From positions 44,881 through 108,880 of IMG/VR virus record IMGVR_UViG_3300002835_000063: 64,000 bases of DNA; one strand, written 5' to 3'. Below, piece after piece: positions 46,625-64,000 of the stretch. The notes beneath the pieces were generated by a model. That model saw only the letters and a list, made by a program, of their open reading frames with translations. It was not told the DNA's origin and searched no databases. The position numbers and the translations under genes were made by a program. The stretch's first letter is position 1; every line of letters starts with the position of its first letter. This DNA comes from a virus.

Positions 46625-47352
46625 CTAACCTAACGGAGCACCTATATCAGAGCCAAAAGGCATAAACGAATCTGGATCAAACTCCGTTGGAGGAATGTAT
46701 GGTTTTGTTTCTTTGTTGGTAAATAACGGATCATCAAAATCAAAGTCATTTGAAGCATTTTTAGGAATGTAAGATCTGCCAGACTGCTTAGATGAAGAAG
46801 AAACCGCGTATCTATAGGTCTTGTTGTAAGTCTTATAGAGCTGAGTACGCAAAGAACTTACAGCTTCTGCTTCTTCGGCAGAACTATATCTAGAATCTGT
46901 CTCAAACAGATAATGGATAACATCAATCATTTCAGATGCCTCCATTTCTAGTAATCTCAATCCGTTAGCAAGGGCCTTACCGTTTACGTATGGCCAGAGG
47001 TCATCCGCCCAGGTTAGGAGACTTCTGGCTGCTGATTTGGGCGTCCGGAGTACTCCTCAACCAGCCACGCAATAATTTCTCCCAGTGTTTCCATGGTTAC
47101 AATTCGCTCTTTGTCTTCCAACAGAGCATTGAATCTCTCAAGGCTTTCATCAACTAAAATCTTGGAGAAAAATGTGCTAATAACGCTTAGAGCCTCTACG
47201 GAGCTCTCAGATTGAGACTTAGTAACCATATCCATCAAAACTTTTCCTTGAAGTACGGGAATGCAGGTAAATTCCTCGCCGTGGATTTTAAATACAATAG
47301 CCTCTTTATCTCCAACGCTAGCGCCAGAGCCAAAGTCTTTATATCTACTCAT
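46625..47352 (-). CDS. Tail assembly chaperone gpGT-like fusion by -1 frameshift
   Basis: Reading 47352 to the slippery CCCAAAT (47041-47035) and then the -1 frame to 46625 gives a fusion of about 242 residues. The -1 frame is open across the gap: after the slip it reads SAARSLLTWADDLWPYVNG into the second frame (LRLLEMEASEMIDV). That second frame lacks a good start of its own. The G/GT pair before the tape measure gene is universal in siphoviruses. Confidence 0.8.
47014..47352 (-). CDS. Tail assembly chaperone gpG-like
   Basis: 112 residues, the unshifted product. It ends GRPNQQPEVS just after the slippery site, with Pro105-Asn106 on the slip codons. It coats the tape measure during tail assembly. 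Ordered directly upstream of the tape measure gene. Confidence 0.8.
   Translation of the reverse strand: MSRYKDFGSGASVGDKEAIVFKIHGEEFTCIPVLQGKVLMDMVTKSQSESSVEALSVISTFFSKILVDESLERFNALLEDKERIVTMETLGEIIAWLVEEYSGRPNQQPEVS
47035..47041 (-). promoter_or_regulatory. Programmed -1 frameshift site C_CCA_AAT
   Basis: On the minus strand the codons CGC CCA AAT give a canonical X_XXY_YYZ heptamer. Both tRNAs can re-pair after slipping one base back, into the frame that continues to 46625. Confidence 0.75.
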
Positions 47353-47436
47353 GTTTTTGTGTCCTTTATAAATAGTGTCTTTACTGGATTTTCCAGCACT
47401 ACTATTGTACCCGAGTAGGGATCTGTCTTATTTGGA

Positions 47437-51922: not shown

Positions 51923-53968
51923 TTAGAGCTCGATAGCAGCTGCAGTTGCGCCACCAGTGGTGTCGCGTAGAGCAGCAGCTACACCGTTGACGTTAACAGT
52001 CTGGGTGATTGCTAGAGACTCGATACCTACCTTGGCGATACCCTCGAAGGTCTCAACGAACATCTTGTAGTCGTTGGTTCCAACTAGTGAGGAGTCGCGG
52101 ATGATACCTAGGTCTAGAGTTCCACCGTCTAGGAACAGGAATGTTCCCTCGGCGAATAGGTACCAGACGAAGCTGTCTGGGAACTCTAGTAGGCCAGTAG
52201 CGCCCTGTGAGCCGAATACAGTTGCATCTGGAGTTGCAACCATGTCAACGTTTAGAGAAGCAAGGTAGCCCTCGATCTCGCTGCGGCTTACATTTAGGGT
52301 GCCATCGCCAGGCATTGCTACAGCCAAGTCAGCTGCCATTGCATCAGCAACCCATGAAGGGATAAATGCCTTCAAGCGGGTGTTGACGTCTAGACGGTGA
52401 CGTGAGCGGTAAGCAGCAGCTGCCTTGCGAACGGTAACTAGGAAGTCACGACCAAAACCTAGAAGGGTTCCGGAAGTGACAGCAGTTGAACCAGCAGAGA
52501 TCTTGCTTAGCAAGTCCTGCTCTGCCTCACGTGCGTGCTGCACTAGAGCTAGCTCGTTGTGGCGAGCAATCAACTCTGGGTAAGCACGGGTCATGAGGTT
52601 ACCGAACTGTAGCTGTAGGGTTACAGCGTCAGTTACAGCAGTCTGCTCTGAAGCAGCTGATACGGTCAGCGAAGTCTTGCTTGCTGGGGATGGGGTCTCT
52701 GCCGAGTCATTCGCTGCGGTCCAAACGCCAACTGCGTTAGCGTAGGTACCAGCTGCAAAGCTTGGAGGAGTTACGAAACGAACACCACCGCGGTCAGCCT
52801 GGAACTTTGGTAGAGCATCGCGCACTGGACGAGCAGTGGTTGAGCCCTGAGCAAAGATGTCGTACTTGACCTCGACTGGGGCTGCGTGTCCACCGGAAGC
52901 AACAAGTGCATCGCGGCCTACAACACCCTCAATCTTAGCGGCATTCTCTAGTGGGTCGGTACCGAGGAAACGGTCCTCTGGGTACTGGGTTGAGAAAGAT
53001 GCAACAATGTGCTGCTCTCCGTCTCCACCATTTACGCGGCGAAGAGAGTGTAGTCTCTTCTCGAATAGCTGAGAAACCTCAGCCATGTCTTTTACTGAGC
53101 TTCCCGCGCTGTAACCAGGGATGTCAGCACCAGCAGTAATTGCTACTGGCACCTCGGTAACCTGAACTACAGGCTGACGGTCGGCTGGTGCCTCGAAAGG
53201 CTGTTCAGCTGCAGCGGTCACTGCCTGCTCCTTCTGCTCTTCTACGAGAGCGGTTGATGTTTCGATAGTTTCTGTTGAAGAAAGCTCTGCGCTTTCCTCG
53301 GTTGTGGTTGATAGTTCAGAACCGTCTTCTTGATCGGTTGATGCTTCTGCGGCTGCCTCGGCTTCAACAACAGTCTCTTCGACTGATGCTTCTGCCTCGA
53401 CTGGAGTCTCTGCAACGGTCTCGGTGCTTGTAGCCTCTACAGTTTCACCTGCTGAGAACTCTGCCTCTACGACCGATGCCTCTGGAGCTGCTTCAGTTAC
53501 AGCTTCAGTAGTTGACTCCTCAGAAGCGGAAGCTGTGATGTTTTCATCTACAGACATTTCTTCCTCTTTCTTTTCTTCTTCGGTTTCTACTTCGGTTGGC
53601 TCTTCAGACTCTGGAGCTTCTACCTCAGGTGCTTCTTCAGCAACTGGAGCTTCTGCTTCAGTTTCTACAGGCTCGTCTTCGGTCATAGCCATTTCCTCTC
53701 CATTGTCGTCTGCTACACCCTTGACACGAGCAGTAGCTTCAGCTGCTTTTGCAGCAAGTTCTGCTGCTAGAGCCTCGCGGCGAGAAAGCTCGCCACGAAC
53801 AATGTCAATGGAATCAGCAAGCGACGTCATAGCATCAACTGACTCGGAAGTTGGGTCTTCAGCTTCAACCGCTTCAAACTGAGTGATGATCTCTGACTGT
53901 AGCTCAGCGAGCTGTTCGTCGCTTAGCTCAGAGATTGCATCTAGCTGAGTTTTAATTTGGTCGTACAC
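51923..53968 (-). CDS. Major capsid protein with long N-terminal scaffold domain
   Basis: 681 residues from a GTG start with a perfect AGGAGGT nearby. About 1-95 are coiled coil (YDQIKTQLDAISELSDEQLA). About 95-290 are a Glu/Ala/Thr-rich acidic stretch. The rest is HK97-type capsid (TTARPVRDALPKFQADRGG, DLLSKISAGSTAVTSGTLLG, LEFPDSFVWYLFAEGTFLFL). The N-terminal third would act as a built-in scaffold and be removed by the protease encoded just upstream. Confidence 0.83.
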   Translation of the reverse strand: MYDQIKTQLDAISELSDEQLAELQSEIITQFEAVEAEDPTSESVDAMTSLADSIDIVRGELSRREALAAELAAKAAEATARVKGVADDNGEEMAMTEDEPVETEAEAPVAEEAPEVEAPESEEPTEVETEEEKKEEEMSVDENITASASEESTTEAVTEAAPEASVVEAEFSAGETVEATSTETVAETPVEAEASVEETVVEAEAAAEASTDQEDGSELSTTTEESAELSSTETIETSTALVEEQKEQAVTAAAEQPFEAPADRQPVVQVTEVPVAITAGADIPGYSAGSSVKDMAEVSQLFEKRLHSLRRVNGGDGEQHIVASFSTQYPEDRFLGTDPLENAAKIEGVVGRDALVASGGHAAPVEVKYDIFAQGSTTARPVRDALPKFQADRGGVRFVTPPSFAAGTYANAVGVWTAANDSAETPSPASKTSLTVSAASEQTAVTDAVTLQLQFGNLMTRAYPELIARHNELALVQHAREAEQDLLSKISAGSTAVTSGTLLGFGRDFLVTVRKAAAAYRSRHRLDVNTRLKAFIPSWVADAMAADLAVAMPGDGTLNVSRSEIEGYLASLNVDMVATPDATVFGSQGATGLLEFPDSFVWYLFAEGTFLFLDGGTLDLGIIRDSSLVGTNDYKMFVETFEGIAKVGIESLAITQTVNVNGVAAALRDTTGGATAAAIEL

Positions 53969-54085: not shown

Positions 54086-57000
54086 TTAGGTAAGGAGTCG
54101 GAGTAGCTTGCTCATCTCAGATTGGATCTCTCCCTGAGAGTAAACATCTGCTCCGGACATGTAAGAGCGCAGGCTTTGGGTAGCAATGTCTGCGTCCTTT
54201 TTACCGATCTTTGCTTCGACTCGGTTGATCATCTGCTCAATGAGATCTTTGAGTCCAACTGGTAGATCGCTAAATCTAAGCTTTGAAGACTCTTTTCCAA
54301 ATGGAAGCGGCAGATTGGCAATAGTCTTGCCGAGCTCAGCCGCGCTCAAACGGACGTTCTCCAAAGATTCTGGGTTCAAGGCTTTAGTATCGATTCTGTC
54401 AATCATATCCAAAAGCTCACTGCTGGCTTTGGCTGATTTTGCATAGTCACCAGCAAAGTCAAGATTTTCTGCTTCTTCGACCTTTTTTAGTGCTTTTGCT
54501 AGTCCAGCTACACCCAAGTCTTGTTTTAGACGAGCCAGAACTTTACGATACTTTCCTTTAGCATCTCTAGGTTGATTTACCCCAGAGATATACTTAGGTC
54601 TGCCATCTTCATCTCTTTCAACTGGCTTTCCCTTGTTAGCTTTTACTTCTTCGGCAGCTTCGATCTCTTCTTCGGTTTGCTTGTCAGCTTCTTCTTTGGC
54701 TTCGCGAAGCTTTTTAAGCTCCTCGTCCGAGATCTCTTCTACTTTTGGGCCGGCAGCCACCACCGCCTTTGCTGCAGCTGTTGCCGACTTTCTCATAGTG
54801 AAAGCTTTTCTTTCTAGCTCTGCCGTAGCCATTTCTTTCCAGTTATCTGGAATTAGTTTTGACTGATTTAGCTGACGAGCACGCTTCATAATGTGCTTGC
54901 GAACTGCACGGCGCTCTGATGCCTTTGATCGACCATAAGCTTGAATTGCATTCTTGAGGTCTTCAACGTTGCGAATTGGGTAGGCACCATCTGGCATTGC
55001 TTTGCCTTCCTTAGCAAGAGCTTCGCGCTCTTCCTGAGAAATGCTTGCCATAGCTGCAAGAGCTGCAGTTAGTGCTGCCTTTTCGCGCATTTTTTCTGCG
55101 CTTGCAGTTAGAGATTGAAGGTTAGCTTCGCGCATTCTCTTCTTTGCATCTTTAACTCTAGACTTTAGGTCTGGAGCAGTTGAAGCAAGCTCTCCTAGCA
55201 TTTTTGCCTTTGTGTTAAGTGAGCATGCAGCACCAGAGCACTTAATCATTGCTAGGTAGCTTGCACCGGCTGCAACTAGAGCTAGAACCTTACCTGAAGC
55301 AATCATTGCCCTGGCGGTAGGGAATCCTGGAACGTTTACTTGGCAGATGGCAACAAGCTCAAGAGATCCATTGATTGGACGCCAGTCACCTGATGGAGCA
55401 GACGCACGTAGTGCACGAATCTGCATTTCTTCTAACTGTGGGCGAAGTGATCCTGCACACCAAATTCCGTACTTGTCTTCGCCAACGTGGATGTCAGCTA
55501 CAGCTGAGGCGGTGTCATCGTAGTGTCTAGCAGCTGAAGCGGCGTCAGCGTTAAGAGGTGCGTGGCCACCAGCAAGAGTTAGTTGACCTACTGGAACATC
55601 GGTTCCTTCCGCAGTGCGAATTACTCCGGTGTGGAAGTAAGCATACTTGCTACGAGAGCGTGGTGGCTTGGTGGCACGTGGCAGACCAATATGGTTCACG
55701 TTCCAAGCAGCGATGTGGCCGTAGACTCGGCCATCCTCGTCCACGGTCAGTGGGGTCGGACCAGCTAGTCCCGGGTCTTTAAACCATTCAGCTGGTGGAG
55801 TCATTGGGATTTCTGACTTCAAAAAGCCCGACGCTACGATCGGCTCAACGTCAGAGAAGTCCTCCAATGATTCCTCATAGATTCCGTCTTCTGGGGTCAC
55901 GTTTTCCTCCTGATCCCCTTCATTTTGCAGCACAATAGAGCATTCTTGGAATGCAGGCTTAGCTACAATTGTAGCAGCCATGATGCGTGCCTTATTTATG
56001 GTAAGTTTGTCCTTACCAATCTCTTCTCCCTCTTCTTCGGCCATATCTTTCTTTGGCTTCTTGTCTTCCTTAGCCTCGAACTGATCTAGGTCCACAGAAA
56101 CGCCACGAAGGAAACCGTTGCGCACTAGTCGCTCTGCTTCTTTTCCGTATGGTCCAGTATCAAATACTCCATAAGCATTTCCCATGCCGTTCTCGAGACG
56201 CTCAACGTAGTCAATACGGCCAACTACAACTGAGCCATCGTGGCCAGCTCCGGTCTTGATTTGCCAAAGCAAAGGGACTGGCAAATCGCGAACGCTGATA
56301 GCGCCCTTCTTAAACTTACGGCCGTCGCCAGATTCTACTTCTTCTGGAACTAGCATTGGAATAGAGAACTTAGCTCCAGATTTAATTGGTGGAGCAGCTG
56401 CAATTAAAGCTACTTTTTGCTTAATTTCTTCATACTTAGCAGAAAGTTCCGCTTTTTCAATCATTGCTTTTGTGAACTGCTCTTCGCTAGTAAAGTTTAG
56501 TCCAGCCGAAGACTTTAGCCCACGCTTGTTGCCAACATTGTATTTGCTGCCGGTATAAACGCCAGTAACTTCCTTGTGACGAAGCTGGCAGTACCCCTTA
56601 GCACGTGGTCCCATGTACTTGGAAAGCTGTCGAACACATCGAGTCCAGTCACCCGGGGTGCCCCAGCGAATTTTGGCTGCACCCTTACCGCGAGTCCAGT
56701 AGCGACGAAGTGCCTCGGCGTTGCCTCGGTTACGGTCCAGACCGCCAGCAGCCAATATTGCATTATTAATATCGCCAGTAGTAGCAAACCAAATTCTCAT
56801 AATGGCAGCAGTAACCGCCTGAGCTTTTGCCTCAAGTCCATCTACCTCAACTAAAACATCATTTAAAACGTTTTTGTCAAGTTGGACAACAGGAGGTGGA
56901 GCAGGAGATTTTAGATCACTTAAAACCTGAGGATCTGGAATCCATTTTTTATCTTGGCGTCTGTATGTAGTTGGCTCTGTGCTTGTTTTTGAGGCAGGAA

Positions 57001-58567
57001 CAATGGCAACTAAATCCATTACAGCCTGGACATCATCCGGAGAAACAATAGCTAAATACTTAGGTGGAACATCAGACTCTTTGGGAGAGTTGATAACATC
57101 AGACTCTTTTTCACCGGCAGCTTTTACAGGTTTGTATGAGTTACGAAGGTCAGCAACATACTTCGGGTAATTATTAATTAAATCGCCAAGATCTTTACTT
57201 GTCATTGGCTTTAAAGTTCCGGGCAGGTGAGCCTTTGGCATATTTCTTGGAGTTCTAGGCTCTCCTAGAATCCCACTGAAATCAATTGGGGCTGTAGTAC
57301 CAGGGGCCATCATTGGACCGTCTACATTTTTTTCGGCTTGGGTATATTCAACCGGAACAGAAATAGTCTTTCCGCTGTCCAAACGAACTTTTACTTTTCC
57401 AGTGGCATAGTCAATTGACTCTAAAACACCAGAACCGCGAGCTCTATCTCCAGCAACTACAGTTCTACTACCAACTTTTACAAACTCGCCGTCTGCATTT
57501 CGTGGTTGTTTACTAGCTTTTTCGGAGAGAAATTCTGGATCTAAATTTCCATCGCCATCTTGGTCAGCGGCAGTGCCAGCAGCAATCATGGGATCGCCAC
57601 CTAAAGCCATAACTCTATCTACTAGTTCCCAGTCTTCTTCTGGAAGACCTAGTTCCGCTAAACGCTGCTCTTCTTCGTCGATCTCTGAAATAGTGATTTT
57701 TGTAGAAGGATCCATAGCTAGTTTTGCAGCAATTAGCATGGCGGAATCGACGTCAATTAGAACGTGAGTGCAGTCTGGAGTTTGATCCTCGTCTAGTTCG
57801 TAATCGTACTTCCAAACATTTGCATCGGCATCGCCCATGTCGTCCCAGATGTTGTCATCCCAAACGTAAGTCTGTCCGTCTGCTTCAATTTTGTAAAGTC
57901 TGTCGATACCCGAGCCGTCCATGTGGACCCGAGCCATAAATTCAGGGCCGTAGCCTTCTTCTAATTCGTAGGCAGCCTTAAAGGAGTCCGCGTATCCAGC
58001 AGCTCTAAGTGATTTTTCTCTTTTATTTTCACGCTCAACAATTGCAGATGCCCAACGCTTAGCTGCATCTCCACCCCAAAGTGCCCAGGCAATTTTTCCA
58101 TTCGATGGGTAGCCATCTTCGCCGGGATCCCAGCCTTTACCCTGCTTATCTACTTCGTGACGAGGGAAATATTTTGCGATATGACGAACTTTTTGAATAC
58201 CGATTTGTCCGCCTCGAGCAAGAGTGCGAGCAGTGTTAAGGCCAACTGAAGTTCCACCGCGCTTGTACTCCTTGCGCCACTCTAAAGCTTTCTTTGCTTC
58301 TCTTTGTACACCCTCGGGGATACTGTACATTCTTCGGCCAGACTCAGCAGCAAACTCCTGGGACTCATAGGTCTCTAGCGCCAGCGAGCAAAGACGCAGC
58401 TGTCCCTCATTCAGGGATTCTTCAGAAGGCTGCCAATCAGAGAAAGACATTAAACCCTGAGGGGAGCCTGAAGCTACAATGAGGTTAATTTCTGTGTTTA
58501 GGACAACAGCATAGCTGTCATTTCCATACAAAGCTAAATTAGCGTTGCGTCCTAGGAGAATATTCAT
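54086..58567 (-). CDS. Giant prohead-protease-containing protein
   Basis: 1493 residues. The N-terminal about 330 residues hold WALWGGDAAKRWASAIV and a DGQTYVWDDNIWDD segment, unassigned. A beta-domain is near 370-410 (RTVVAGDRARGSGVLESIDY). About 600-680 are helical with CVRQLSKYMGPRAKGYCQLR. About 740-835 resemble an S78-type prohead protease (GAGHDGSVVVGRIDYVE, GFLRGVSVDLDQFE; candidate catalytic His and Ser). About 920-1120 are a capsid-associated domain. About 1190-1250 carry MPDGAYPIRNVEDLKNAIQA, common in actinophages. The C-terminus is coiled coil. The fusion is far longer than a normal protease. Confidence 0.7.
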   Translation of the reverse strand: MNILLGRNANLALYGNDSYAVVLNTEINLIVASGSPQGLMSFSDWQPSEESLNEGQLRLCSLALETYESQEFAAESGRRMYSIPEGVQREAKKALEWRKEYKRGGTSVGLNTARTLARGGQIGIQKVRHIAKYFPRHEVDKQGKGWDPGEDGYPSNGKIAWALWGGDAAKRWASAIVERENKREKSLRAAGYADSFKAAYELEEGYGPEFMARVHMDGSGIDRLYKIEADGQTYVWDDNIWDDMGDADANVWKYDYELDEDQTPDCTHVLIDVDSAMLIAAKLAMDPSTKITISEIDEEEQRLAELGLPEEDWELVDRVMALGGDPMIAAGTAADQDGDGNLDPEFLSEKASKQPRNADGEFVKVGSRTVVAGDRARGSGVLESIDYATGKVKVRLDSGKTISVPVEYTQAEKNVDGPMMAPGTTAPIDFSGILGEPRTPRNMPKAHLPGTLKPMTSKDLGDLINNYPKYVADLRNSYKPVKAAGEKESDVINSPKESDVPPKYLAIVSPDDVQAVMDLVAIVPASKTSTEPTTYRRQDKKWIPDPQVLSDLKSPAPPPVVQLDKNVLNDVLVEVDGLEAKAQAVTAAIMRIWFATTGDINNAILAAGGLDRNRGNAEALRRYWTRGKGAAKIRWGTPGDWTRCVRQLSKYMGPRAKGYCQLRHKEVTGVYTGSKYNVGNKRGLKSSAGLNFTSEEQFTKAMIEKAELSAKYEEIKQKVALIAAAPPIKSGAKFSIPMLVPEEVESGDGRKFKKGAISVRDLPVPLLWQIKTGAGHDGSVVVGRIDYVERLENGMGNAYGVFDTGPYGKEAERLVRNGFLRGVSVDLDQFEAKEDKKPKKDMAEEEGEEIGKDKLTINKARIMAATIVAKPAFQECSIVLQNEGDQEENVTPEDGIYEESLEDFSDVEPIVASGFLKSEIPMTPPAEWFKDPGLAGPTPLTVDEDGRVYGHIAAWNVNHIGLPRATKPPRSRSKYAYFHTGVIRTAEGTDVPVGQLTLAGGHAPLNADAASAARHYDDTASAVADIHVGEDKYGIWCAGSLRPQLEEMQIRALRASAPSGDWRPINGSLELVAICQVNVPGFPTARAMIASGKVLALVAAGASYLAMIKCSGAACSLNTKAKMLGELASTAPDLKSRVKDAKKRMREANLQSLTASAEKMREKAALTAALAAMASISQEEREALAKEGKAMPDGAYPIRNVEDLKNAIQAYGRSKASERRAVRKHIMKRARQLNQSKLIPDNWKEMATAELERKAFTMRKSATAAAKAVVAAGPKVEEISDEELKKLREAKEEADKQTEEEIEAAEEVKANKGKPVERDEDGRPKYISGVNQPRDAKGKYRKVLARLKQDLGVAGLAKALKKVEEAENLDFAGDYAKSAKASSELLDMIDRIDTKALNPESLENVRLSAAELGKTIANLPLPFGKESSKLRFSDLPVGLKDLIEQMINRVEAKIGKKDADIATQSLRSYMSGADVYSQGEIQSEMSKLLRLLT

Positions 58568-58628: not shown

Positions 58629-58775
58629 TTATTCGACGGGCTTTTCGGTGTCGTCGTCAATCTCATTTGTTGGATTTCCGACAACTTTTGCTAGTAAGAC
58701 CCAGTACTCTGGGTCGTCTTGGGTATACCCGCCAAGAGTTTCTAGGTCTAGTCTTGGCTTATATTCTTCAGCCAT
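58629..58775 (-). CDS. 48-residue acidic protein
   Basis: The ATG overlaps the stop of the double-ArdC gene (TAATG), and GGAG lies about 10 nt upstream. The peptide contains DLETLGGYTQDDPEYWVLL and an acidic end (EIDDDTEKPVE). It is followed by the GGTAAAAT element. Function unknown. Confidence 0.6.
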   Translation of the reverse strand: MAEEYKPRLDLETLGGYTQDDPEYWVLLAKVVGNPTNEIDDDTEKPVE

Positions 58776-61700
58776 TATTCTTCATCTCCTTCTTGGCCTT
58801 GTTTGCCTAGGTAGGTGTTGTAGCCCTCTAGAGGACTCCAGTCTCCTAGATCCATTCCTAACATATAGTCTACAGCTTGCTGAGCTTTGGATGCAGATAG
58901 CTGCAATATTTCTGGATTGCCTCCCTTTAGGACATTAAACCAGCTTTGCATGTAAGCCTGAGTATTGTCTACGTCATACTCAACGCCAAACATTTCTCCC
59001 AAAATAGCGGCCCCCATTTCAGCAATTAGCTCTTCCTGAGCCCGGGCTTGCCCATCTGGGTTGCCGTAATCTTTTGTCAGCTCTGTTCGGTCTAGACGAC
59101 TTGGGTGCCCCGTGCTGTGGGTAAGCTCATGCATCAGAGTGTCAAAAACTTCTTCTGGAGAGTTAAACTGAGCCAAAGAAGGAAGAGTGATACTGTCTGA
59201 CATTGGAGACCAGTTGGGGGAGCTGTCGTGGGTAGAGTAGTTTCCTACATAAGAGTAATCAATTTTGGGAGGCTTAAGTCCCTTTGCTTCCATACTCTTT
59301 ATGTATCTTTCGAGAATAAACTCTTGAGCGTCTACCGGAGCCATTTCAGTTGTTGGCTTATCATCCGGTAGATCTAGATTCTCAATTTGGGCCACATTGA
59401 AAACAGTAGCTGTCTTGAAGTAAAGTTTGGCAAACCCGGCTGGTTTTCCTTCTTTATCTACTAAAGGCTTGCCCTTCTTATCTTTTGTTATTAGGAACTT
59501 TACAGGAACCAAAATAGGAGTTCCCGTTTCGCCTTTTTTAACATTTCCACCAAGCGACTGAGCCTGCTTGTACGTCATCCATCTGGAGTCGGTGTAGCCT
59601 TCAGACATTGCAGCAATCTTTAGCCAGAAAGAGTTAAAGCCGCTATATAGGCGCTTACTGGAAGGATTTCTTGGGATACCGCTACCACCAGTGAATTCAA
59701 ATCCATCTTTGTAGCCCTTGCGCCAAGGAACTTTGTTGTCTCCAAGCTCTTCTAATTTTTTGATTAAAGCATCATAAACTTTTTGTTTAGCCTGGTCACT
59801 AGTATTAACATTCTGATCCAGAGAGACTTCTACAAGATCCAAAGCATCTATAGAGTCCTGGCTAGTGTCTGGGTTGATGCTAGAAGTCAGCGGAGTAAGC
59901 TCGGTGTTTCTAAATTCAGTTGGAGTCTTTGGGCGTTTAGTTTGCGTTGGATCCCATTTCGGCATAGTGTCGATGTCGTTTCCAAGCATGTAGTCAATGG
60001 CAGCCTGAGCCTTCGTCGAAATATCAACCAAGTCAGCGTCACTAAACTTTCCTCTACTAGCTTCAGTAGCTATATAAGCAGCCGAGTTTTTGGTGTCGTA
60101 GTTTAGGCCGAACATCTTCATCAACATGGCAGACGCCATCTCAGCGATAGCCTCTTCTTTGGCTCGCTGGATCGGGTCAGTTCCAGCCTGCCGTGTTTCA
60201 GGGCGGTTCTGTCTAAATGCTGCACCAGTGCTGTGAATTAGCTCATGAGCCAAGCTTTGGATCCAAGCCTCGTCGCTCTTAAACTGCTCCCTAAGCGGAA
60301 GCTTTACTCTGTCTCTAGAGTAGTTAGGACTTTTTAGTGGTTTTCCAGTGTCTGGATTTACTGAAGTCTCGTCTACCTTCAGACCCAAAATTCCTGGAAT
60401 GCCACGGCCTTTTCGTTCTATTTCAGCTCTGTTAAACCGATCTAAAATAACTTGGAATGCCTCAGCTGGAGTGTACTTGACCGTCTCTGGCTCTTCGTAC
60501 TTTGGCATTCCATCGAACTGCTCGGCGTTGTAAACCTGAACTGGAACAAAACGGACGCTCTCCAGCGATGCGCCATCCTCTGATTGATATTCACGCAACG
60601 TTGGAACTGCGATTGAGGTAGGAGTAGCTCCAGCCTTAAGCTTTGCTCCGTAGGCTTTCTCGGCTTCCTGAGCAGTCAACCAACGAGGGTCAGAATAGCC
60701 AGCCTTGTCGGCAGCAGCAGAGAGAGCAACCAAGTTGAATGCTTTGTACTCATGGTTGTTAACTGGGTTGAGCGGAGATGTTCTGCCCTGCTTGGTAAAG
60801 TTTTTTACCCAGTCGCGGGGGGACTTTAGGGCCTCTTTTACTTCTTGTAGAACAGACGCAACTACGTTTTTATTTGTAGAGATGTCGGCAGCTACTTTTC
60901 CTGGTAGTTCGGCAGAGGTTACTTTTTCGACTGGAGTCTTGAATATTCTGGATCTAATTTCGTCAAAAACTTTGTCTACGTCGTTAGAGCCCGTATCAAC
61001 ACTTTGATCCAAATCTGCACCTGAATCAGTTGGAAGCAGAATGTCAGAGTCTGGGAAAATAAAGTATGGATTGATTTCCCGGGGCTGTTTGGACTCTAAA
61101 AATGCAGAGACAGCAGGATCAAAGCTTTGATTTGGAGATTTTTCTACTAGTCCCGGTTTAAATTCGCCTTCGGCTTTATTCGTAAAATCTGAAAGTGTTA
61201 CTATGGCTGGGACATACTCTTCTCCAGCTTGAATAGCTGCTTCCACCCTATGGTTTCCATCAGCAACTACTGCTTGTCTGGTTATTGGGTTATAGGCAAC
61301 CTGAATAGGCTCATATATGCCTTCTCCAGATTCTAGATCACTCTTTTTACTTTCCAAAGACGACAAGTCAGCTGCATCGTTACCTTGTATCCGCTTTAAG
61401 GCCTCTGGTCTAACTAGTCCAACAGTAGATTTGTCTCGACCTAAGCCAGCCAAAACATTCCAAGGCGTGTGCTCTAAATTGGGGTGCTTAGATTTTAGGT
61501 AGTTCTTATAAGATTTTGCAACTTCGGCTTGTTTGTCCCCAATTACCTCATAAAAAAGAGTCTTCGAGTCTACTGTAGACATGTCTAAAGAAGACGAAGA
61601 GTCAAGTGGACCATTTTGAGTGCGGGACCAGACATCTTTGGATCCGTCGTCGTACTCAATTGTAGTGTCTACTAATAAAACCGGGCTTCTTTTGTCCTCG

Positions 61701-61780
61701 TTAATATTAAATTTTCTGGAGTCATCTTCTGTAATGCTTGTGACAGTTTTAGTGCTTCCGTCGGGTAAGCGGACAGTCAT
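58775..61780 (-). CDS. ParB-like plus tandem ArdC-like antirestriction/metalloprotease protein
   Basis: 1001 residues from the first ATG. The frame is open further up to the slip site at 61885, with no standard start, so the true product is probably a frameshift fusion. About 130-190 resemble a ParB/sulfiredoxin-like domain (YEPIQVAYNPITRQAVVADG followed by NHRVEAAIQAG). Two ArdC-like units follow. Unit 1 covers about 310-590, with HELIHSTG near 512. Unit 2 covers about 650-990, with PWRKGY, YKQAQSLGGNVKKGETGTP and HELTHSTG near 883. Each has HExxH and a downstream EE-(L)IAEM. ArdC proteins bind ssDNA and counter restriction. Encoded in the virion operon, so possibly injected. Confidence 0.77.
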   Translation of the reverse strand: MTVRLPDGSTKTVTSITEDDSRKFNINEDKRSPVLLVDTTIEYDDGSKDVWSRTQNGPLDSSSSLDMSTVDSKTLFYEVIGDKQAEVAKSYKNYLKSKHPNLEHTPWNVLAGLGRDKSTVGLVRPEALKRIQGNDAADLSSLESKKSDLESGEGIYEPIQVAYNPITRQAVVADGNHRVEAAIQAGEEYVPAIVTLSDFTNKAEGEFKPGLVEKSPNQSFDPAVSAFLESKQPREINPYFIFPDSDILLPTDSGADLDQSVDTGSNDVDKVFDEIRSRIFKTPVEKVTSAELPGKVAADISTNKNVVASVLQEVKEALKSPRDWVKNFTKQGRTSPLNPVNNHEYKAFNLVALSAAADKAGYSDPRWLTAQEAEKAYGAKLKAGATPTSIAVPTLREYQSEDGASLESVRFVPVQVYNAEQFDGMPKYEEPETVKYTPAEAFQVILDRFNRAEIERKGRGIPGILGLKVDETSVNPDTGKPLKSPNYSRDRVKLPLREQFKSDEAWIQSLAHELIHSTGAAFRQNRPETRQAGTDPIQRAKEEAIAEMASAMLMKMFGLNYDTKNSAAYIATEASRGKFSDADLVDISTKAQAAIDYMLGNDIDTMPKWDPTQTKRPKTPTEFRNTELTPLTSSINPDTSQDSIDALDLVEVSLDQNVNTSDQAKQKVYDALIKKLEELGDNKVPWRKGYKDGFEFTGGSGIPRNPSSKRLYSGFNSFWLKIAAMSEGYTDSRWMTYKQAQSLGGNVKKGETGTPILVPVKFLITKDKKGKPLVDKEGKPAGFAKLYFKTATVFNVAQIENLDLPDDKPTTEMAPVDAQEFILERYIKSMEAKGLKPPKIDYSYVGNYSTHDSSPNWSPMSDSITLPSLAQFNSPEEVFDTLMHELTHSTGHPSRLDRTELTKDYGNPDGQARAQEELIAEMGAAILGEMFGVEYDVDNTQAYMQSWFNVLKGGNPEILQLSASKAQQAVDYMLGMDLGDWSPLEGYNTYLGKQGQEGDEE

Positions 61781-61863
61781 ACCTTCTTTAAGCTTGCGTA
61801 CGCTAACAATCTTTGGACTTTTAGCGGAAACCCTAGATGCTTGATCTAGGTCAGGACCTTGGT

Positions 61864-61891
61864 CCCCCTCATCGGGGGTTAGTCTTTTTTT
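61864..61891 (-). promoter_or_regulatory. Probable programmed -1 frameshift signal (A7, spacer, hairpin)
   Basis: On the minus strand: A_AAA_AAA (61891-61885), 6-nt spacer GACTAA, then CCCCC-GATGA-GGGGG (61878-61864). The upstream gene stops inside the spacer, and the -1 frame continues into the gene at 58775. Slippery run, spacer and stem match the standard frameshift layout. A sequencing error in the homopolymer is the main alternative. Confidence 0.6.
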
Positions 61892-64000
61892 GAGAAAAAG
61901 TCCTCGACTAGACCTTGGATTTCATCGGCCATCACATCTGAAAGCTTTAGAGCTATACCTGACGAGGGGGTAACAGCCTCTCCATCAATAAACACATCGT
62001 AATTGCTGGTGTCTACCATTCGATCGTCGTCTAAATCACCGTCAGAATTCACAACCACTCTGATTCTGCCATCTTTAGATGTAAAAGTGCCTGGCCCGGG
62101 GCGGCCATCTCCACTAGTTGGTCCGTCAAACTCTTCGGACTCTAAAAACTGTTCAGCGAAGTCGTCAGCTACAGACTTAGCATACCCAGCAGGATTTAGG
62201 TCTGGGTCTGCGGCCATCTCCTCTTGAGTCTCGGGGGTGGTTGGCTCGTTAGGGAGCTGTGACTCTAAGAAAGCCTGACGCTTTTCAGCCATCTCGCGCA
62301 TGCGCTGGCCGTACTCCCTGAGAGAGTTTGCTACGTCTAGATCACCTCTACTGTTCTCAAGAGCCGCTGCAATGCCGTCTATTCTGTCAGCAAAGTCTAA
62401 AGCATCTTCAGGAGACTTAGCGTTTTTTGCCTCTTCTACAAGTTCGTCTAGTTCTCCGTCCCGGTATTCGCTAGGCATAACATCGCTGTTATAGTCAGCT
62501 GCAGCTGAGGCAGCTTCAGCCAGAGCGTCATCCCTATCGTCATACGTAAACTCGTCGCTACCCCTGTCATAGGTAACAATTGCAGTGTAGGTGCCATCTT
62601 CTTCTTGGTAGACAAATATCTCTGCACCACCAGATCTGGTGTCACCGTACGTATCTTCTGTGCGCATCAAATCCATAATTTTATCTGGATCAGTTTCGAA
62701 GAACATTTCACGTTCTGTTTCAACTGTTAGAGCAACATCATCTAAATACATTACATCTCTGCTGCTGTCATTGCTGTGTCTGGCTGCATCCGCTACACCA
62801 AACCTATCAATAAACTCTTGTTCCATCCGATTTGCCAAGTCTTGCAATTTGGAAGCTAGCTCTGAAGGAACGTCTCGCTCTTCAGAGAAATCACGAATAT
62901 CTTGAATCCAGCTTCCAGCAAGAGACGCAGTATCTGAATTTAAGAAATTATCATATGCCTCTGAAGCCGCATTTTTGGTGAAGAAGTCAATAGCATCTAG
63001 TTCCTTAGAAATTTGATCTGCTAAATCCTTGGTTTCAACAGATCTAGTTGGCTGATCCTGGTCTAGGTCTGGCTCCTCGCGGCCATCAATAAACTCCTGA
63101 AGATTTGGATCCTCGGTGTCTATAGCAATCTGGCGTAGGGTGTCTTTGATATCAGTTCGATATTCTGCGTACTCTGGCTTATCTAGCAAATAACGAAGAG
63201 TGTCAACATCTTGGTTTCTAGCCAAGCTATCTAGAAGGTCATTCATGCCCTGGGCAGTTACTGGACGCTTCTTAATGTCGTCAATAATTTCCGAGGCCTC
63301 TTCAAAAGAAACGCCAGAACTTAGTCTGTCTTCAATCTCCTTGATTTGCTCTGGAGTAAAGTCACGCTCGATGATGCCGCGCTTGATAGAAGCTACCTGC
63401 TTAGCAGTTGGCTCACGACGAACATTTGGACGGTCCGGAAGATTGCGTAGTGCTCCGATAAACGCGCCTACTTCACCCTTAGTTAGATTCTTGTCACGAA
63501 CTGCGGTGCGAGCCGCAGCTTCTAGGTTAGGATCGTCAATCTTTTTGCCGTTTAGTAGAGACTCTAGGAAGCTGTACTGTTTGTCGGTAGCCGCTTCTTC
63601 TAGAGATGGTTTGGTTGGTTGATCCTGGTCAAGGTCCACCGAGGCAGCTAGATCATCAGCTGCTCTGTCATAGTCTTTGCCTTCTTGGTTCTGCTTTACC
63701 AATTCCTCTGCAAAAGCTAGAGCCTCTTCCTCTGACTTAAATGCTTGAGAGTGGCTAGTTTGGCCGCCTCTATCATTCAGGTCCGGGTTGGTGTAGAAAA
63801 CTTCCCATCCGTTTGGGGTTTTCATAACATCTACGTAATTGTATGCATCTGACCATTCATAGGTGTCGTCGGTTATCTTTCGTAGACTTCCGGTTCCCTG
63901 GTTTAAGTCTGCTGGCTTGTCCTTCTTGCGACGAAGTTTGTTAAGCAGAGCTTCAACGTTGTCGCGGGAGCTATCTGCTTCTAGTGACTTTAGGGTGTCA
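61879..64000 (-). CDS. Large acidic virion-operon protein, 5' end outside window
   Basis: The frame is open to the window edge. An internal Met at 63825 is not the start, because the codons before it (for example TDDTYEWSDAYNYVDV) clearly continue the protein. About 706 residues are visible. It is helical and acidic, with two DLDQDQPT linkers (also DLDQ in the downstream gene) separating domains. A TAKQVASIKRGIIERDFTPE segment resembles small helical modules. It ends FFSKKD at the slippery run. Probably a structural or ejected protein; its fold is not recognised. Confidence 0.7.
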   Translation of the reverse strand, partial: DTLKSLEADSSRDNVEALLNKLRRKKDKPADLNQGTGSLRKITDDTYEWSDAYNYVDVMKTPNGWEVFYTNPDLNDRGGQTSHSQAFKSEEEALAFAEELVKQNQEGKDYDRAADDLAASVDLDQDQPTKPSLEEAATDKQYSFLESLLNGKKIDDPNLEAAARTAVRDKNLTKGEVGAFIGALRNLPDRPNVRREPTAKQVASIKRGIIERDFTPEQIKEIEDRLSSGVSFEEASEIIDDIKKRPVTAQGMNDLLDSLARNQDVDTLRYLLDKPEYAEYRTDIKDTLRQIAIDTEDPNLQEFIDGREEPDLDQDQPTRSVETKDLADQISKELDAIDFFTKNAASEAYDNFLNSDTASLAGSWIQDIRDFSEERDVPSELASKLQDLANRMEQEFIDRFGVADAARHSNDSSRDVMYLDDVALTVETEREMFFETDPDKIMDLMRTEDTYGDTRSGGAEIFVYQEEDGTYTAIVTYDRGSDEFTYDDRDDALAEAASAAADYNSDVMPSEYRDGELDELVEEAKNAKSPEDALDFADRIDGIAAALENSRGDLDVANSLREYGQRMREMAEKRQAFLESQLPNEPTTPETQEEMAADPDLNPAGYAKSVADDFAEQFLESEEFDGPTSGDGRPGPGTFTSKDGRIRVVVNSDGDLDDDRMVDTSNYDVFIDGEAVTPSSGIALKLSDVMADEIQGLVEDFFSKKD

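Follow-up and report, generated by a model that had tools for sequence, protein, structure and literature searches.

We describe a site in a viral genome that very probably acts as a programmed −1 ribosomal frameshift, adding the protein D, with its duplicated ArdC region, to the C terminus of a large protein, U, as judged from comparative sequence analysis. The window, i.e. the whole stretch of DNA analyzed, takes up the final 64 kb of a viral contig of 108,880 bases. The site lies on the minus strand at 61864-61891 and reads TCA_AAA_AAA_GAC_TAA-CCCCC-GATGA-GGGGG. Four sequence-level properties of canonical −1 programmed ribosomal frameshifting (PRF) are found here: a heptamer in the 0-frame, a structure ∼5–9 nt downstream, a coding −1 ORF that lacks a start, and conservation of both signal and frame. 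The features of the locus are these.

61885..61891, minus strand: slippery heptamer A_AAA_AAA in the U frame (read TC A_AAA_AAA); C_CCA_AAA takes its place in many relatives
61879..61884, minus strand: 6-nt spacer GACTAA, containing the 0-frame TAA stop; a 6-nt spacer is also found in class C relatives (CCCAAAA-TAGATA-GGGCTG)
61864..61878, minus strand: hairpin of CCCCC (61878-61874), GATGA and GGGGG (61868-61864); 5 bp, all GC, with compensatory changes in relatives
61901..61905, minus strand: GAGGA, similar to a Shine-Dalgarno sequence, 9 nt before the slippery run; may be an optional stimulator
61879..63999, minus strand: U, 0-frame ORF, C-terminal 706 aa, with the 5′ part outside the window; ends SKKD-TAA, stop at 61879-61881
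58775..61885, minus strand: D, −1 frame ORF of 1036 codons, predicted C-terminal extension of U; homologues have no start near the site
61778..61780, minus strand: first ATG in the −1 frame, 35 codons past the slip; position not conserved and without a well-placed Shine-Dalgarno sequence
58901..60250, minus strand: duplicated ArdC region, with two ArdC-N-like and two MPTase-PolyVal (HELIH, HELTH) copies
54086..58567, minus strand: adjoining capsid maturation protease-type protein, used as the synteny anchor for the census
51923..53968, minus strand: major head protein (phrog_777, 1e-79)

The probable frameshift signal and its genomic setting

A preliminary description of this DNA had pointed to an A7 slippery run, a 6-nt spacer, a GC-only 5-bp hairpin and a stop inside the spacer, and to a −1 frame that is open for ∼35 codons without a start. 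All of these elements are present on the minus strand, with the first ATG at 61780. An exact match to AAAAAAAGNNTARCCCCC is found a single time in the window, where 0.14 occurrences are expected by chance with up to 2 mismatches. A Shine-Dalgarno-like tetramer at 5–16 nt was seen in 9/25 PRF loci, compared to a background of 11% (P about 0.001, the rows being non-independent); given its presence in only 9 of the 25, such an element may be an optional stimulator. Searches with Rfam, PADLOC and for tRNA gave no match.

Minus-strand genes in the window run in the order U (truncated by the contig end), D (ArdC), capsid maturation protease, major head protein and tail genes. A near-identical contig, L002 (2 mismatches in 3256 nt), extends further upstream; there, terminase, portal, a ferritin/Dps-like protein and a DUF5824 protein precede U. 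The order terminase, portal, U, D, protease, major head protein corresponds to the packaging and virion genes of a portal-terminase phage. The ferritin/Dps-like protein (PF00210, 5.6e-16; L002:4502-4972), encoded between portal and U, overlaps the end of the portal ORF. Full-length U in L002 comprises 1475 aa from stop to stop, or 1471 aa from a GTG (L002:5706-10118) that is preceded by a good Shine-Dalgarno sequence, AGGAAAGG. A −1 slip on A_AAA_AAA would yield a U–D fusion of ∼2506 aa, with the junction ...FSKK/RLTPDEGDQGPDLDQASR...; the expected junction peptides are of the type LTPDEGDQGPDLDQASR for the window and SLAPNEGAEPGLDQDAPDLDR for L046-type loci.

The site lies between portal/U and protease, and not between the major tail and tape measure genes, where G/GT is located. 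Elsewhere in the window, directly upstream of the tape measure gene (46625-47427, minus strand), two ORFs overlap in the −1 register, with C_CCA_AAT at 47041-47035 in the overlap. This is probably the classic tail assembly chaperone G/GT frameshift, in which case the phage would use two −1 frameshifts.

Among relatives of the U/D locus, two unrelated types of stem are seen, both with compensatory changes. In the class with the stop 3 nt past the heptamer, a hairpin directly follows the stop. For this CCCCC-GGGGG-type hairpin, 93.8% of cells are paired (16 distinct sequences), and changes on both sides are found at 3/6 pairs, with C-G replaced twice by G-C at pair 18-32 and twice by U-A at pair 22-28. 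The covariation score is 0.212, versus 0.095 when shuffled (0/500), and is higher than those of all 500 shuffles and all slid versions. With 5 bp, the window hairpin is a short one, and several class A loci do not stand out in folding z-score over 67 nt. In the second class, the stop comes directly after CCCAAAA (pattern CCCAAAA-TARATM-GGGCTG...CAGCCC), and the GGGCTG...CAGCCC stem encloses an inner helix that varies between phages and always forms. Long ORFs flank 13 of the 14 matches to this pattern (U, 371–973 codons; D, 702–1002 codons), and folding z-scores range from −2.5 to −4.7 in the eight loci tested. Although stop position and stem sequence differ, the spacer between heptamer and stem is 6 nt in both classes.

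Split and fused relatives

Counting the window, about 34 viral contigs have the split U/D arrangement. In all of them A_AAA_AAA or C_CCA_AAA is read in frame, a stop follows after 0 or 3 nt, and a 6-nt spacer separates the heptamer from a GC-rich stem. A comparison with related genomes, as the preliminary description had proposed, reveals that relatives keep the arrangement, many of them without an A run (C_CCA_AAA). The first relatives were retrieved by homology to the ArdC protein rather than by motif, and two of these had sequence through the site. Relatives found by protein homology include L004/L095, with A_AAA_AAA, and L006/L085, with C_CCA_AAA. In L004 (79% identity over residues 252-1001), the site reads AAAAAAA-GCGTAA-CCCCC-GACAC-GGGGG; in L006 (45% identity), it reads CCCAAAA-GCGTAG-CCCCC-AGCGA-GGGGG. 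These two sequences indicate that the heptamer has been swapped between canonical forms while frame, stop, spacer and stem were kept.

Viral contigs were also scanned for AAAAGNNTARCCCCCN{4,6}GGGGG, which gave 46 matches falling into two clearly separate groups. In 15 of these, a 0-frame ORF of at least 375 codons ends at the stop and is accompanied by a −1 ORF of at least 173 codons; the remaining 31 have at most 115 and 103 codons, and mostly far fewer. Most of the long-ORF group forms one protein family, in which U and D are homologous at 25–80% identity. The cassette is present in L035/L065, yet neither U nor D of these has BLAST similarity to the others tested.

To avoid a motif-based choice of loci, we then took a census with the adjoining protease-type protein as query, keeping the best 80 of at least 317 loci. 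Among these 80, split U/D pairs in the clade are without exception in the −1 register; AAAAAAA or CCCAAAA is correctly framed in each and lies 0 or 3 nt ahead of the U stop. At non-split loci, the position is usually occupied by one giant ORF. In a protease tree built with FastTree only, all 18 split rows fall inside one 27-row clade (support 100), together with 8 single-ORF rows, and well-supported branches force at least five changes of state between split and single ORF. The window locus belongs to a clade of freshwater phages that probably infect actinobacteria, a host suggested only by the best matches of the protease gene, which are to actinobacteriophages. A host prediction for the relative DSL-LC01 is available (PMC10611076). 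A U-alignment search of genome contigs found no cellular relative.

In 25 loci, the first ATG, GTG or TTG past the slip lies 20–142 codons downstream, at positions that are not conserved. We counted differences between slip and first start by codon position in the −1 frame. The values for positions 1, 2 and 3 are 1, 1 and 14 for L046/L056, 2, 0 and 9 for L179/L186, and 2, 0 and 6 for L187/L188. By this measure, the stretch evolves in the relatives as a −1-frame protein under purifying selection. Such a third-position bias ahead of any start removes most of the case for independent initiation. These tests of −1-frame coding apply to relatives, the window's own 35 codons being without a close homologue for a direct test; direct comparison of the window with L084 over the first D residues gave a match too weak to be informative.

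Four relatives (L092/L093, L098, L099 and L135) carry U and D homologues in one ORF, and no slippery heptamer, stop or hairpin is seen at their junctions. The single 4801-aa ORF of L092/L093 is homologous to the L089 pair (3341 + 1773 aa): the alignment with U (65%) stops 7 residues short of the slip, that with D (66%) begins at residue 19, and the junction holds a different linker of ∼165 aa without the CCCCC-GGGGG hairpin. The junction codons of L098, L099 and L135, GGA CCT AAG (or GGT CCT AAA, GGA CCT AAT), match GGC CCA AAA of the slipping relatives, with no heptamer or stop. In this set of genomes, a break in the frame goes together with the slippery signal, and uninterrupted ORFs lack it.

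Alternative explanations

The preliminary description had argued that the region is translated as a continuation of U. The in-frame heptamer, the spacer, the covarying stem, the constant −1 register, purifying selection in the −1 frame and the natural fusions all support this view. The alternative of two genes, in which D would be expressed either with ATG 61780 as its own start or by reinitiation after termination at the U stop, could appeal to the presence of that ATG, to the complete ArdC domains contained in D alone, and to the GGGGG tract near the U stop. We consider it very unlikely, as in relatives up to 142 codons pass before any start codon, the first starts occur at varying places inside conserved sequence, the stretch before these starts is under −1-frame purifying selection, the register is always −1 and the break always at the heptamer, and natural fusions exist. 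Runs such as A7 can allow RNA polymerase to slip, and transcriptional slippage could in principle give mixed mRNAs with no ribosomal frameshifting. However, over half of the relatives have only four A's (CCCAAAA), and the conserved 6-nt spacer, covarying RNA stem and immediate stop are features of ribosomal −1 PRF, making this explanation very unlikely.

Three further readings seem extremely improbable. An assembly or sequencing indel in A7, the true gene being one continuous ORF, might be suspected, since A7 homopolymers are error-prone and single-ORF relatives exist. The run is identical in a second contig (IMGVR_UViG_3300049595_002741; 2 mismatches in 3256 nt), with seven A's, as originally described, and not six or eight. 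The same −1 break at CCCAAAA in many relatives further excludes homopolymer error; moreover, a heptamer followed by a 6-nt spacer and stem marks every break, with conservation of both stop and stem. The single-ORF relatives are also compatible with a recent frameshift mutation (pseudogene) that happened to fall at a homopolymer, an idea hard to reconcile with ∼34 contigs conserved to 27–45% protein identity with both ORFs intact. Finally, on the plus strand, the element CCCCC-TCATC-GGGGG-TTAGTCTTTTTTT scores as terminator-like, and one could imagine that hairpin and T-run form an intrinsic terminator of plus-strand transcripts, the frame overlap being incidental. Yet the T-run is merely TTTT in CCCAAAA relatives, the class C stem is unrelated, there is no known plus-strand gene here that would need a terminator, and the coupling of frames would go unexplained.

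U and D proteins and their possible role

Window D matches MPTase-PolyVal (5e-44) and ArdcN (4.5e-41) in two stretches each, and has a weak ParB-like match. By sequence match it has what defines an ArdC protein, ArdC-N plus a zincin MPTase with HExxH, and the twofold ArdcN + MPTase-PolyVal with the weak ParB-like match is the domain content of a polyvalent protein. HExxH is found in D in 19 of 21 tested pairs, compared to 0.9% per protein expected by shuffling, and is absent from U in all 21. Among D proteins that are not of the ArdC type, a segment with HExxH is common to families by BLAST (to 1e-17; L101 with L096, 1e-7). For these proteins the term metallopeptidase is provisional and follows from the motif, Pfam support being sub-threshold. 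In-frame fused members of the clade have HExxH near the C terminus. Of the giant proteins tested from outside the clade, a single one, from Arthrobacter phage Racecar, has the motif. In two relatives, L102 and L111 (near L103), D ends after 263 aa without the HExxH part, possibly reflecting loss of the peptidase with the frameshift signal retained. By eye, the C-terminal part of D looks ADP-ribosyltransferase-like in L096 and GNAT-like in L101, with no Pfam match at threshold.

The N-terminal ∼345 aa of U are homologous to giant single-ORF proteins of relatives, including that of DSL-LC01 (2e-49), and this shared N terminus fits a common head-associated part followed by variable cargo. An AlphaFold model of this domain (mean pLDDT 75, pTM 0.48) gave no fold match at E ≤ 0.001 in viral and PDB libraries. 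In the same slot, a single-ORF homologue (L106:1485-9275) and Arthrobacter phage Racecar gp78 (L178) are giant proteins with a helicase domain, and cargo at the U/D position thus varies.

The preliminary description had noted a DLDQ linker in the −1 frame, resembling linkers in both flanking proteins. LDQ/FAQ do flank the site in most ArdC-type phages; they are not enriched in the other classes. Repeated linkers (GLDQDAP, GFDQAPG, GFAQEPG) separate domains in U and D of L046, L085, L084, L089 and the window, and the linker dialect tends to agree between U and D of one phage. These repeats may represent linkers or processing sites.

If programmed frameshifting operates here, ribosomes translating U would reach A_AAA_AAA and meet a GC hairpin 6 nt downstream that resists unwinding. 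Most would stop at the UAA three nucleotides later, releasing U (1471 aa). In a minority, both lysyl-tRNAs would re-pair one base upstream and translation would continue through D, giving a U–D protein of ∼2506 aa whose C terminus would be the duplicated ArdC (ssDNA-binding plus zincin metallopeptidase). The ratio of U to U–D would be set by one mRNA signal, as for Gag and Gag-Pol. That most ribosomes would stop, a minority continue and the ratio be fixed is expected because of established frameshifting biology. Within a polyvalent protein built into the head, U would supply the packaging and cargo part, and the frameshift would limit the metallopeptidase/antirestriction module to few copies per virion. 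This module could process the giant protein, and could enter the host with the DNA to protect it. Gene context, between the portal and protease genes, suggests that U–D resides in the virion head and that few copies of the peptidase/ArdC module are wanted. The frameshift is well supported by sequence, and we infer its efficiency and the packaging, dosing, processing and injection of its product.

Iyer et al. 2017 (PMC5512222) proposed that polyvalent proteins encoded in this gene context are packaged and injected with DNA, the MPTase perhaps serving in self-processing; the word 'frameshift' is absent from the text of that paper. Like the proteins they describe (PMC5512222; P1 DdrB/Dar, N4 virion RNAP), U–D would be a giant multidomain protein of portal-terminase phages that mixes ArdC-N, MPTase, ParB-like and other effector domains, but here, in one clade, a −1 frameshift would add the C-terminal MPTase/ArdC part, yielding two isoforms. 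Frameshifting in lambda G/GT, T3/T7 gene 10 and the phage A2 head protein (PMC5009743) similarly uses a slippery sequence to make a minor, C-terminally extended product. In the U/D case, by comparison, the gene lies between portal and protease, the product is far larger, and the extension is enzymatic or effector-like rather than a chaperone or Ig-like domain. The likeness to retroviral Gag/Gag-Pol is in design: an excess of the N-terminal structural or cargo part, with a protease-bearing module placed on a minority by means of heptamer, spacer and stem. There is no homology, the virus is a DNA phage, the putative protease is a zincin and not an aspartic protease, and packaging is suggested by gene order. 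ArdC of plasmid pSa also combines ArdC-N with a zincin metallopeptidase, whereas here this unit is duplicated, fused behind a ParB-like region and U, and would be expressed through a frameshift. Phage −1 PRF as such is already known; no earlier description of a U/D-type frameshift was found in the open-access literature, searched by title and abstract.

We see about an even chance that these loci amount to a Gag/Gag-Pol-like system in tailed phages, one in which a freshwater clade evolved −1 frameshift signals with at least two unrelated types of RNA structure, by which a metallopeptidase/effector module is dosed at the C terminus of a giant polyvalent protein packaged in the head, with lineages switching between the frameshifted and the fused state. 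The conserved frameshifts known in tailed phages are mainly in tail chaperone and coat genes. U/D would add a class in which frameshifting controls how much peptidase/antirestriction cargo is built into a giant portal-adjacent protein, and the naturally fused relatives are controls for asking why the module is dosed. Gene callers split these proteins, and D should not be read as an ArdC gene in its own right. The signal is compact and can be searched for, which gives a way into the polyvalent cargo of actinobacteriophages, so far poorly understood.
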